34,145 bases of DNA from the NCBI GenBank assembly GCA_026390815.1, contig JAPLFH010000058.1, forward strand, positions 1-34,145. Direction: 5' to 3'. Both the position numbers and the translations under genes were made by a program. The notes under the pieces were generated by a model. It searched no databases and was not told the DNA's origin. It worked only from the letters and a program-made list of their open reading frames with translations. The DNA comes from Ignavibacteriales bacterium (lineage in GTDB: Bacteria; Bacteroidota; Ignavibacteria; Ignavibacteriales; SURF-24). Below, in pieces: positions 3,658-34,145 of this stretch; positions within the stretch are counted from its first letter, which is position 1; each line of letters begins with the position of its first letter.

Positions 3658-3981
3658 ATGCGAATTATTTCCAGAAATATTTTAATTGCATTTTGGAGTA
3701 AACATCAGGATGCTGAAGAACCACTAAAAGCCTGGTTTGATGAAGCTAAAAAAGCCAAATGGAAAAGTCCAAATGAATTAAAGAAACATTATAAAAATGC
3801 TTCAATCATTTCAGATAAGCGGGTTGTCTTCAACATAAAAGGAAATCATTATCGATTGGTGGCTGATATTGAATATTATATTGGTATTGTTTTCATTATA
3901 TGGATAGGAACGCATAAAGATTATAACAAACTTAATATAAAGGATTTGCAATATGCTAAAACCTATAAAAACAAAAAGTGA
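3658..3981 (+). CDS. higB: HigB-family mRNA-interferase toxin
   Basis: This is a 107-residue protein of the HigB/RelE-like toxin family, whose members cut mRNA on the ribosome. Visible family hallmarks are the N-terminal MRIISRNIL...FWSKHQDAEEPLKAWF, the central KAKWKSPNELKK, the RVVFNIKGNHYRLV core strand and the C-terminal WIGTHKDYNKL with the conserved GTH. Its length is normal for the family. It is first in a two-gene unit and its end overlaps the antitoxin gene by 29 bases, the toxin-first order typical of higBA. Expression is probably autorepressed through the palindrome at 3618-3632. No residue loss suggesting inactivation is apparent. Confidence 0.9.
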   Translation: MRIISRNILIAFWSKHQDAEEPLKAWFDEAKKAKWKSPNELKKHYKNASIISDKRVVFNIKGNHYRLVADIEYYIGIVFIIWIGTHKDYNKLNIKDLQYAKTYKNKK

Positions 3982-4312
3982 ATATAAAAAATCGCTAAAG
4001 AGGATTTATGAATTAATGCATCTGGATTTAAAACCCAATATGCCTGAATTTGATGAGCTTGATTTATTGTCACTTTTAATAGAGCATTATGAGGAAAGAA
4101 ATTTTCCTATTGCATCTCCCGATCCTATTGAAGCTATTAAGTTTAGAATGGAGCAGATGGGATTATCTAACAAGGATCTGGTTAACATTCTTGGTTCAAA
4201 AAGCAGAGTATCCGAAATATTAAGCAAAAAAAGAAAGCTAAGTTTGCAAATGATTCGATCGCTCCATAATAATTTGAATATTCCCGCTGAAGCGTTAATT
4301 ACTGACTACTGA
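3953..4312 (+). CDS. higA: HigA-family antitoxin with helix-turn-helix
   Basis: This 119-residue partner of the upstream toxin has the HigA layout: an N-terminal helical part (to about residue 60, including EFDELDLLSLLIEHYEE) and a C-terminal helix-turn-helix (about 65-115) with IKFRMEQMGLSNKDLVNILG, SRVSEILSKKRKLS and MIRSLHNNLNIPAEALI. It should neutralise HigB by direct binding and repress the operon. Its ATG lies inside the toxin gene (29-base overlap), so translation is probably coupled. The stop codon falls inside a hairpin (4305-4336). It is most likely a stability or stress module; its position beside repeat-rich non-coding DNA fits an acquired cassette. Confidence 0.88.
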   Translation: MLKPIKTKSEYKKSLKRIYELMHLDLKPNMPEFDELDLLSLLIEHYEERNFPIASPDPIEAIKFRMEQMGLSNKDLVNILGSKSRVSEILSKKRKLSLQMIRSLHNNLNIPAEALITDY

Positions 4313-4419: not shown

Positions 4420-5505
4420 ATGGATTCAAAAAAATATAATAATATAAAACTTGGCGTTGGAATTGGGAAAGGCATTGCTTCCTTTATTCTTATATTACTT
4501 TTCATATTGCTTGGATTTAGTCTTGCCGTAGAAATTTACCTTTCAAGATATTTATCTAACAACTATTTAATATTTTTATCATTCGTTTTTGTAACCGGAT
4601 TGGCTGGCTCTATAATTTTCTTTCCGGTTAATTTTTATTCTGAGTTTTATCTTGAACATAAATTTCAACTTTCTAATCAAACTTTCTGGGGTTGGATTTG
4701 GGAAGACCTAAAAGGAGTTTTAGTTTCAGCAGTAATCGGCATACCTTTGCTTTTTATTTTTTATTATGTAATGATTAGATTTGGTTCATTCTGGTGGCTT
4801 CCGTTCGCAATCATTCTTTTTATCGTTTCAGTAGTTCTTGCAAGGATCGTCCCGGTTTTTATTCTTCCACTCTTTTACAAAATAACTCCATTAGAAAACC
4901 AGGACTTGGAAAGCAAGATAGAAAATTTAGCAACCGGAGCTGGTTTAAAATTAAAAGCAGTAATGAAATTTAATATGAGCAAGAATACCAAGAAAGCAAA
5001 CGCTGCCTTTACCGGAATAGGGAAATCAAAAAGAATTTTGCTCGGTGATACTTTACTGGAAAATTATTCCACTGATGAAATTGAAACTGTTATTGCACAT
5101 GAACTTGGACATTATTACCACAAGCATATTTTAAAGAATATTATTTTTGGAACAGTAACAAGTTTCTTAACACTTTATCTTTTGGCGGTTCTGTATCAAG
5201 TTTCAATTAGCTGGTTTGGATTTAATCACATAACACAGGTATCTGCAATTCCAATTCTATCTCTATGGGCAATGCTTATTGGCATAATTCAATCTCCAAT
5301 TGGCAGTGCAATCTCGCGGAAGTTTGAATACCAGGCTGATGAATACGCTGTAAAAGTAACCAACAAACCAGAAGATTTCATCAGAACTTTGGAAAAACTA
5401 AACGAACAAAATCTTGGTGACAAAGAACCGCATCCTTTTGTTGAATGGTTTTTTTACAGTCACCCATCGGTTAAGAAAAGAGTGGCGGCAATAAAAGGAA
5501 GTTAG
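4420..5505 (+). CDS. M48 family membrane zinc metalloprotease (Ste24/CAAX protease type)
   Basis: This 361-residue integral membrane protease has several hydrophobic segments (about 15-38, 49-70, 100-120, 127-152, 238-262, 275-295). The zinc motif is HELGH at residues 227-231, and the third ligand is probably Glu303 in KFEYQADEYA. The C-terminus has the family ending FYSHPSVKKRVAAI. The N-terminal half (FPVNFYSEFYLEHKFQLS) matches the M48 N-terminal domain of CAAX prenyl protease 1. Bacterial members act in the inner membrane, but their substrates are mostly unknown, and no prenylation role should be assumed. There is no clear Shine-Dalgarno site. The stop codon overlaps the first unit of the repeat array that follows. 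Confidence 0.88.
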   Translation: MDSKKYNNIKLGVGIGKGIASFILILLFILLGFSLAVEIYLSRYLSNNYLIFLSFVFVTGLAGSIIFFPVNFYSEFYLEHKFQLSNQTFWGWIWEDLKGVLVSAVIGIPLLFIFYYVMIRFGSFWWLPFAIILFIVSVVLARIVPVFILPLFYKITPLENQDLESKIENLATGAGLKLKAVMKFNMSKNTKKANAAFTGIGKSKRILLGDTLLENYSTDEIETVIAHELGHYYHKHILKNIIFGTVTSFLTLYLLAVLYQVSISWFGFNHITQVSAIPILSLWAMLIGIIQSPIGSAISRKFEYQADEYAVKVTNKPEDFIRTLEKLNEQNLGDKEPHPFVEWFFYSHPSVKKRVAAIKGS

Positions 5506-5618
5506 AAAGTGGGAAAGTTAAGCAGTTAGAAAGTTTAACATGTAAAAAGTTTGTCAAGTTGGAAGGTTTATCAGGTAGGAAGGTTAGTCAAGTTATAAAG
5601 TTCATCAGGTTGATAATG
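5502..5618 (+). repeat. left array of seven degenerate 16-18-base repeats
   Basis: Seven contiguous units start with TT and mostly end in AAG or AGG: 5502-5517, 5518-5533, 5534-5549, 5550-5566, 5567-5583, 5584-5600 and 5601-5618. The best units are TTTGTCAAGTTGGAAGG and TTTATCAGGTAGGAAGG; the consensus is about TTTRTCARGTTKGAARG. The same unit recurs in opposite orientation at 6009-6103, on the other side of the four-helix-bundle gene. Units decay towards the protease gene. Confidence 0.85.
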
Positions 5619-5643
5619 TTAAAAAAATCTAGTTGAGGATAAT

Positions 5644-5988
5644 TTGAAGTTTGAAAGGTTTGAGGAAATAATTGTATATCAGAAATCAAAGGAATTAGCG
5701 ATTGAGATTTATAAATGTTTCTCCATGATTAAAGATTTTGGATTTAAAGATCAAATTCAAAGAGCCGTTATTTCTATCAGTAATAATATAGCGGAAGGTT
5801 ATGAACGAAAGAGCAATAATGAATTTAAACATTTCCTTTTTATTGCAAAAGGGAGCTCTGGTGAAGTTAGAAACATGTTGGATTTAGCTAAAGAACTTGG
5901 TTATATTCCTCAACAAAGATGGAAAGAATTGAATGATCAATCTTTAACGATTTCCAAAATGATTTCTGCTTTAATTAAAACATTGTAA
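5644..5988 (+). CDS. four-helix-bundle protein of the S23/23S-rRNA-IVS family
   Basis: This 114-residue all-helical protein is recognised from its family pattern: an N-terminal FERFEEIIVYQKSKELAIEIY, then IKDFGFKDQIQRAVISISNNIAEGYERKSNNEFKHFL, then the GSSGEVRNMLDLAKELGYI segment. Relatives are encoded inside intervening sequences of 23S rRNA genes, as free-standing genes, or as diversity-generating-retroelement accessory proteins; they form pentameric basic bundles that probably bind nucleic acid. The start is TTG at 5644: GAGG at 5635-5638 lies five bases upstream and there is no in-frame ATG until residue 28. The gene sits exactly between two inverted repeat arrays (5502-5618 and 6009-6103), like an IVS loop, but no rRNA gene or reverse transcriptase is next to it. 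Confidence 0.9.
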   Translation: MKFERFEEIIVYQKSKELAIEIYKCFSMIKDFGFKDQIQRAVISISNNIAEGYERKSNNEFKHFLFIAKGSSGEVRNMLDLAKELGYIPQQRWKELNDQSLTISKMISALIKTL

Positions 5989-6008
5989 AATTTATAATCT
6001 TAATAAAA

Positions 6009-6103
6009 CTTTCAAACTTGACAAACTTTCAAACTTGACAAACTTGACAAACTTTCAAACCTGAAAAACCTTCCAACCTGATAAACTAACTAATTCTGAT
6101 AAA
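6009..6103 (-). repeat. right array of the same 17-base repeat, inverted
   Basis: Read on the minus strand, the units are TTTGTCAAGTTTGAAAG twice in perfect copy (6009-6025 and 6026-6042), a half unit (6043-6051), then 6052-6068, 6069-6085 (TTTATCAGGTTGGAAGG) and a diverged 18-base unit at 6086-6103. The unit at 6069-6085 differs from the left-array unit at 5567-5583 by a single base. The two arrays could pair over much of their length in RNA or as a DNA cruciform, enclosing the 114-residue gene. Confidence 0.85.
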
Positions 6104-6140
6104 CTTGATTAACAAATTAGTTACTATTCAATTGATTTAT

Positions 6141-6176: not shown

Positions 6177-6470
6177 ATGTCTGTAACACGAAAAGATGTT
6201 GAACATATTGCGGAGCTTGCAAGATTAAATTTTAAAGAAGATGAACTGGAAAATTTTACACATCAGCTTAATCAAATTCTTGATTATATGGAGAAGCTGA
6301 ATGAGCTGGATACTGAAAATATTGAACCTCTTTCTCATCCCGTTGAAGTGAGCAATGTTTTTAGAGAAGATGAATTAATACAATCAATTCCAACCGAAGA
6401 AGCGTTAAAGAATGCTCCTGATAAAGACGATCAATTTTTCAAGGTACCAAAAGTTATAAATGTGGATTAA
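6177..6470 (+). CDS. gatC: Asp-tRNA(Asn)/Glu-tRNA(Gln) amidotransferase subunit C
   Basis: At 97 residues this has the usual GatC length and sequence: RKDVEHIAELARLNFKEDELENF near the start, LNQILDYMEKLNELDTENIEPLSHPVE in the middle, and the NAPDKDDQFFKVPKVI tail that wraps around GatA. GatC stabilises the GatA/GatB complex that converts Glu-tRNA(Gln) and, in some species, Asp-tRNA(Asn) to the amidated forms in the cytoplasm. TTGAGGAATAA before the ATG is a good ribosome-binding site. gatA and gatB are not in this window. kdsB follows after 14 bases and is probably co-transcribed. Confidence 0.95.
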   Translation: MSVTRKDVEHIAELARLNFKEDELENFTHQLNQILDYMEKLNELDTENIEPLSHPVEVSNVFREDELIQSIPTEEALKNAPDKDDQFFKVPKVINVD

Positions 6471-13449: not shown

Positions 13450-13486
13450 GAATCGGAGAATCGGTGAATCGCAGAATCGGTGAATC
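13450..13486 (+). repeat. 8-base tandem repeat, about 4.6 copies
   Basis: GAATCGGA, GAATCGGT, GAATCGCA, GAATCGGT and a final GAATC follow without gaps between kdsD and lptC. The array includes a GTG that could be read as an upstream lptC start, which I consider unlikely. It resembles a short-repeat relic or slippage-prone spacer. Confidence 0.8.

Positions 13487-32860: not shown

Positions 32861-34145
<1,285 letters not shown>

Follow-up and report, generated by a model that had tools for sequence, protein, structure and literature searches.

The S23 (PF05635) family is the protein family of the intervening sequences (IVS) of 23S and 16S rRNA genes, in which, according to the accessible text of the source, the gene lies within complementary, stem-forming flanks (PMC4990558). 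PF05635 ORFs are likewise described in the rRNA insertions of CPR bacteria (PMC11270868, accessible text). The locus considered here raises the question of what such a gene is doing outside rRNA. In the window (the whole stretch of 34,145 nucleotides analyzed, contig C58 of the Ignavibacteriales genome G000), a PF05635 gene is found between an M48 protease gene and gatC, not inside a 23S or 16S rRNA gene, and is enclosed by two inverted arrays of short repeats (Table 1). Sequence comparison identifies this feature as one copy of an insertion unit of ~450-700 bp, whose arrays consist mostly of 7-9-base repeats.

Table 1. The element and its neighbours, in window coordinates.
Feature	Position	Strand	Remarks
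M48 (CAAX-type) protease gene	4420..5505	+	upstream neighbour
5' array	5500..5618	+	degenerate repeats of 8-9 / 17 bases, consensus about AAGTTTGTCAAGTTTGAAAG
GAGGA	5635..5639	+	putative ribosome binding site ahead of the TTG start, read from the sequence
Unit-like stretch within the first codons of the PF05635 gene	5643..5660	+	83% complementary to 6049-6066
PF05635 / TIGR02436 four-helix-bundle gene	5644..5988	+	114 aa, TTG start
3' array	6006..6103	-	inverted copies of the 5'-array unit
gatC	6177..6470	+	downstream neighbour

The gene scores 115 bits against PF05635 and 113 bits against TIGR02436, and the solved structures nearest to its product by sequence are 2gsc (XCC0516) and 2rld. The initial annotation had described a basic bundle; the pI is indeed 9.0, but with 18 K+R against 15 D+E the protein is only mildly basic. 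It had also placed the gene between inverted arrays, and this is borne out by the profile matches together with arm pairing in several registers: 5548-5594 with 6041-6087 (47 nt, 85% complementary), 5546-5569 with 6006-6029 (92%) and 5546-5560 with 6041-6055 (100%). Tandem Repeats Finder reports a period of 17 in the 5' array (5549-5593, 2.6 copies, 78%) and in two overlapping parts of the 3' array (6006-6054, 2.8 copies, 93%; 6039-6087, 2.9 copies, 81%), the 5' array being the more degenerate (5524-5610, period 34, 77%). The number of units per array, previously given as seven and five and a half, hinges on the degeneracy allowed. When scored for inverted similarity, the flanks of the element reach 29.5, against a median of 9.5 and a maximum of 16.5 at 207 other window positions. 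Folded as RNA, 5490-6115 reaches -156.6 kcal/mol, compared with -116.1 (sd 6.0) for 20 shuffles (z -6.7). The left array begins at 5500 and so overlaps the protease stop codon (5503-5505), as first reported.

The element contains a single ORF of at least 60 aa, that of PF05635, and no transposase. Across the window, Rfam yields a single match at gathering score, a 16S rRNA at 32861-34145, and the description of the element as free-standing holds. With a PF05635 ORF within complementary flanks, it nevertheless has the layout of an IVS. Elsewhere in the window, 3658-4312 contains a HigB-type toxin gene (PF09907) and an overlapping helix-turn-helix gene, which likely form a toxin-antitoxin pair, and a tandem repeat with a period of 8/16 (GAATCGGA) lies near an ORF start at 13450-13486, outside the element.

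Occupied and empty versions of the site can be compared. In three related genomes (G002, G003, and G004) roughly 100-190 nt separate the protease tail from gatC, and this interval contains no gene and, as judged by eye, no arrays; in a fourth, gatC was not found in the stretch examined. The comparison supports the view that the window gene and its arrays behave as one insertion outside rRNA. The intergenic part of these empty sites is too diverged to define a target-site duplication.

The window genome (4.52 Mb) harbors 15 PF05635 matches, one of them under the family cut-off, and a reading of their flanks reveals inverted short repeats around most copies, with letters that vary from copy to copy. 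One 7 kb contig (C21; L001, L013, L015, and L002) carries four of the matches, one with an internal stop and one partial. For counting, each locus was given an arm score, in which its own 5' flank is compared with its own 3' flank, and arms swapped between loci served as control; loci with less than 100 nt of flank on one side (1/44 in own and related genomes, 4/88 named) were left unscored. In own and related genomes the score is at least 16 in 24/43 loci, at least 14 in 27/43 and below 14 in 16/43, whereas none of 29 GatC loci of the same class reaches 14 (L045 was excluded from this control for having an element on its upstream side). Among the loci from named genomes and cyanobacterial plasmids, the named ones supplied by a scan as the best 80 of at least 589 confirmed stretches, 48/84 score at least 16 and 69/84 at least 12, against 1% and 5% of swapped arms, respectively, and 24/84 fall below 14. 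About a third of the PF05635 loci from own, related and named genomes have flanks without clear arms. Swapped arms remain at background (median 9.0 vs. 16.8 for own arms), and terminal inverted repeats are accordingly not common to the copies. In a first statistic on the 15 own-genome loci, own arms ranked top in 7/15; three of these loci run into contig ends, and arrays that are short and degenerate obtain low scores. In an early swap control, related loci facing the opposite way raised the background (for GatC too, mean 14.5), and the counts given here do not come from it.

Judged by record titles, many of them of MAG contigs whose single taxon labels may be wrong, arms scoring at least 16 occur in Bacteroidota, Chloroflexota, Planctomycetota, Acidobacteriota, Pseudomonadota, Thermodesulfobacteriota, Bacillota, Cyanobacteriota, Kaiserbacteria, KSB1, WOR-3, and SAR324. 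Most of the PF05635 genes sampled, which represent about a dozen phyla, are thus accompanied by inverted arrays of short units. A contig labelled Limnohabitans (L130) encodes a protein 83% identical to that of a Flavobacteriales MAG (L100) and is possibly misbinned. In a viral collection, 25 contigs (L346-L370) have PF05635 genes and 18 of these, near-duplicates included, have arms of at least 16; a collection of named phages gave no match to one PF05635 query protein. Boxed PF05635 units therefore make up a large class, in which the window element is nothing out of the ordinary, and the original observation was real, with a reach that was underestimated.

The units themselves differ between lineages, which rules out a single repeat family for all elements. 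Clear periodicity is present in 112/259 PF05635 flank sides, with a period of 7 or 14 in 78 of the 112, and in 1/58 GatC flank sides. Read in gene sense, the 5' arm is C-poor (10% over 72 arms). The window's own unit has 17 bases (8+9), compared with mostly 7-base units in the class, and units of 8-9 bases like it are a minority among PF05635 elements; the 17-base unit put forward by the initial annotation is thus confirmed as the period of both window arrays but is not a family-wide property. Among 345 genomes of the phylum, the protein closest to that of the window element is found in G030 (59% identity), and its arms (TAAAGTTTGTAAAGT) resemble those of the window element (score 19 vs. 9 for an antisense control). 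Relatives at 50-54% identity have arm similarity scores of 9 to 15.

Between unrelated sites the unit tends to travel with the protein. In a comparison of 80 loci with an arm score of at least 15, the 26 non-orthologous pairs above 60% protein identity, which overlap in members and for which orthology was excluded by DNA comparison of outer flanks only, have a mean arm similarity of 10.9, against 5.6 for the antisense control and 5.6-6.2 in all lower identity bins. This is a tendency, as an arm score of 14 is attained by only 19% of these pairs, and some pairs have no common unit, among them L138 and L162, whose proteins are 67% identical (arm similarity 4.75). Examples of such co-travel are the AGC-type units of Pseudanabaena, Calothrix, and G024, and a Trichormus plasmid element together with four loci from relatives of the window genome (L029, L026, L003, and L032; 73-81% protein identity). 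Copying of the units from the target site is unlikely, given that arm similarity tracks protein identity between unrelated sites.

The protein tree, built from 123/132 proteins (those with stops or unknown residues and short ones were dropped) and 116 columns, intermixes window-genome relatives, cyanobacteria and all others, a group that spans many phyla; it requires 18 changes where the least possible is 2. The tree is weakly resolved and its bootstrap not settled; the changes forced by well-supported branches number at least 8 for window-genome relatives and 3 for cyanobacteria. By eye, related proteins on the tree carry related units. That gene and arms occur as a unit, both at different sites and across phyla, is well supported by these comparisons, and the class behaves like a mobile unit, as had been proposed for the window element. 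Counting against a simple mobile unit, no recent duplicate is seen in the 20 copies compared out of 45 in G024, G036, and G011, where the closest within-genome pair has 68% protein identity.

Within Flavobacterium, one site could be followed across species. It is defined by the gene pair flanking L112 and was traced via the upstream gene, which was matched in 194/199 genomes. The best 30 loci, one of them in L112's own genome, are all occupied by the element at the same site, which looks like long vertical maintenance. Twenty further loci, hand-picked from ranks past the first 30 (81-84% identity), comprise 6 with an insert-sized gap and 14 that are gene-less. With a median dN/dS of 0.12 (264/435 pairs), the PF05635 gene evolves under purifying selection; the arms turn over fast, but both together. 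Own arms exceed permuted arms with a z of 5.8, while inside a clade the scores of swapped and own arms are nearly equal (18.9 vs. 19.9), so that the own-arm effect lies mainly between clades. It is visible in the core of the unit, which in both arms is CA(A/G/T)AG in clade A and CT(A/G/T)AG in clade B: the two arms of clade A (13 species) contain 46 and 46 CA-cores and 3 and 1 CT-cores, and those of clade B (17) contain 62 and 65 CT-cores and 3 and 0 CA-cores. Protein and repeat are thus linked, and the sequence of the unit tends to follow the protein lineage. At the gene-less sites a hairpin with a z of -5 or lower relative to two-letter block shuffles is present in 12/14, and a short AAGANNN hairpin array with a spacing of seven is seen by eye in 10/14. 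These hairpins may be gene-less relatives of the element or ordinary hairpins; no target-site duplication could be defined here either, another hairpin being present at most gene-less sites.

The reading favored here, and considered probable, is that of an insertion unit composed of a PF05635 gene and inverted arrays, in which each protein would recognize the repeats around its own gene and the unit would be moved or copied by a host factor. Recognition, which is likely, would most probably concern DNA, either as double-stranded repeats or as single-stranded hairpins, and would tie the core of the unit to the protein. Slippage and arm-to-arm correction would keep the two arrays alike. The gene would rely on read-through transcription from the host operon, and its sense orientation would be kept in this way; gene-less arrays would represent non-autonomous or decayed derivatives. 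As the natural protein-repeat pairs covary in sequence, both a recognition code and movement become testable.

Orientation and position bear on whether the arms act as RNA or DNA. In the 114/132 loci scored with a simple ORF finder, orientation relative to the two neighbours is ++ in 95, +- in 10, -+ in 6 and -- in 3. One of the only three antisense cases is L077, on a Nostoc plasmid, in which a PF05635 element is located between the genes for the beta and alpha subunits of ribonucleotide reductase and is antisense to both. When PF05635 and GxxExxY loci (see below) with arms of at least 16 are pooled, the 5' arm starts at a median of 3 nt past the upstream stop (58/79 within -20 to +30), and a median of 15 nt lies between the end of the 3' arm and the next ORF (49/77 within -20 to +40). 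The sense orientation and the position at operon junctions indicate that the unit lives inside host transcripts, a situation that fits either an RNA function or a dependence on read-through.

Under the former option, the element would be an RNA-level intervening sequence, that is, a stem-loop in the operon transcript that is cut by RNase III as in 23S rRNA and whose stem is bound by the protein. Sense orientation in operons, the strong predicted RNA fold of the window element and membership of the rRNA IVS protein family all count in its favor, as does a partial register match: most loci score lower once the units of their 3' arm are shuffled, the mean fraction of shuffles that reach the own score being 0.17 in 47 loci preselected for a score of at least 18 and an aligned arm of at least 28 nt, and 0.25 in the 30 Flavobacterium loci. 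A partial match of this kind is, however, expected from arm-to-arm correction and from a DNA hairpin as well as from an RNA stem. A selected sense-RNA stem should tolerate G.U but not A.C mismatches, and no excess of G.U is present in any of three PF05635 sets: 58 G.U vs. 81 A.C in set A (72 arms, p 0.06), 25 vs. 37 in set B (35 arms, with near-duplicate viral loci and most set A loci removed by hand, p 0.16), together 83 vs. 118, and 31 vs. 56 in Flavobacterium, where rows are related. The GxxExxY arms lean the opposite way (33 G.U vs. 24 A.C, p 0.29), and neither this lean nor those of sets A and B are significant. Sense-RNA pairing therefore gains no support, and the stem of rRNA-IVS type that the initial annotation had envisaged does not emerge as a selected feature. 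In addition, the main change within Flavobacterium affects the core of all units in both arms and does not consist of single compensated pairs. An RNA-level intervening sequence is regarded as unlikely. The element differs from rRNA IVS also in its location outside rRNA at an operon junction, and probably in its arms, which are short-repeat arrays differing by lineage.

The arrays are not confined to PF05635 genes. A 400 kb sample of the window genome yields eight inverted matches at seven places (raw count). They include an inverted array without a gene that is built from the 17-base unit of the window element and apparently lies between two genes (G000:C5:30282-30527, L267:10282-10527), another gene-less array that by eye resembles the unit of a different G000 element (L272 and L007), an array around a Y1 transposase gene, and an inverted GCGGATA-like array boxing a GxxExxY/PDDEXK_3 gene (L260:9133-9604, G000:C33:129133-129604). 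The last of these plans recurs: in one locus from each of 30/39 own and related genomes with a GxxExxY match, own arms have a median score of 16.2 and reach at least 16 in 17/30, with units of ~9-10 bases by eye. Swapped GxxExxY arms are raised as well, with 6% at 16 or more, as the units of different loci are similar.

A Crocosphaera MAG with one gene-bearing element in view contains 147 matches to the unit of that element (overlaps counted), against 0 for the backward control. Across 21 distinct sites (30 loci), the gene is present at 1, a gene-less inverted pair at 2 and a single array within the stretch examined at 18; some of these single arrays lie at contig ends, and a partner arm differing at more than 3 of 15 bases would have been missed. 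The predominance of single arrays argues against a strictly paired life of the arrays and is the strongest result against the simple mobile-unit picture; arrays may spread or arise alone, too. Scattering of the unit without its gene, which the initial annotation had named as a sign against its proposal, is hence seen in part, in the mostly single Crocosphaera arrays and in the gene-less G000 array, the latter being inverted nonetheless.

The single arrays of Crocosphaera also invite a mutational explanation, in which slippage makes the arrays, template switching makes the inverted copies and the gene is merely caught between them. Heptamers are over-represented in bacteria, with slippage proposed as the cause (PMC4692102, accessible text), and the AAGANNN hairpin arrays at gene-less Flavobacterium sites point the same way. 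Such a by-product would not account for PF05635 genes being boxed by arrays in many phyla when GatC genes are not, nor for a unit that tends to go with the protein from site to site and that, at the Flavobacterium site, changes with the protein clade, and this explanation is held to be very improbable.

The insertion-unit reading calls for a host factor, and several candidates were considered. A resident reverse transcriptase is ruled out as a present requirement, given that PF00078 is absent in 14/28 genomes with at least four copies; searches with this profile (RVT_1) gave no match in G000 (15 copies), nor in G024 (19) and G011 (15). A GxxExxY nuclease is ruled out as an obligatory helper by G021, with 11 PF05635 and no GxxExxY matches. 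It could still be supposed that the units are remnants that owe their movement to a known enzyme acting in trans, for instance a Y1/HUH transposase (RAYT-like) or a GxxExxY nuclease. PF05635 counts correlate with those of Y1_Tnp (rho 0.43) and GxxExxY (rho 0.49) across 39 genomes, uncorrected for kinship and genome size, and GxxExxY genes are themselves boxed by inverted arrays. Elements are nevertheless found without a GxxExxY match in G021 and in G012 (4 copies), and without a Y1_Tnp match in G003 and G017 (one copy each), and there is little reason to expect that this account is the right one. In G000, Y1_Tnp has 6 matches, none of them on the window contig.

Small size, inverted halves, gene-less copies and RAYT (Y1) transposases are features of REPINs. 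The PF05635 elements resemble MITEs and REPINs in the first three respects but have no common terminal sequence, no transposase inside and a lineage-specific unit. The accessory protein Avd of diversity-generating retroelements (DGR) is a four-helix bundle homologous to PF05635 (PMC10053308, accessible text); unlike a DGR, the window element resides in a genome without an RVT_1 match.

A closer parallel is offered by bacterial heptamers, described in the accessible texts as GGGAATC in Xanthomonas, GGGGA(T/C)T in Nostoc and TAACTGA in Beggiatoaceae and cyanobacteria (PMC4692102; PMC4679880; for further work see PMC6749651). The heptamers are mostly intergenic; those of Xanthomonas are near the upstream ORF, with 70 (Xcc) and 75 (Xac) convergent two-site cases, and few of those in Nostoc are paired (PMC4692102); for the TAACTGA sets horizontal transmission was suggested, with no mechanism evident (PMC4679880). 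Like the units of most periodic PF05635 arms, these repeats are seven bases long and mostly intergenic, and those of Xanthomonas resemble the arms also in lying near the upstream ORF and in some cases being convergent, but in the accessible texts they are described alone, with no link to a PF05635 gene. The accessible text of PMC8934634 likewise contains no repeat-PF05635 link, and a search of open-access papers, with most subscription journals and all preprints outside its range, found none connecting short repeats with a PF05635 gene.

It is conceivable, if rather doubtful, that all of these belong to one minimal class of mobile elements, in which a small bundle protein and its own arms co-evolve as partners in recognition. 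The class would then be so far undescribed and spread over much of the bacterial tree; the heptamers of cyanobacteria, Xanthomonas, Beggiatoaceae and others would be its gene-less or decayed copies, and rRNA IVS would be the special case of members that landed in rRNA genes. The boxed PF05635 units as such connect three things: free-standing, many-copy PF05635 genes with no known role, unexplained heptamers, and the PF05635 genes reported as ancillary in cas loci (PMC3936711, accessible text). Boxed PF05635 units may in any case explain some bacterial short repeats so far without explanation. The cas context recurs on plasmids of Pseudanabaena (L075) and Anabaena sp. 90 (L081), where a PF05635 gene is positioned between cas6 and cas4; both genes bear their own inverted arms (scores 30.5 and 28.0), so that PF05635 reads there as an insertion and not as a Cas component.
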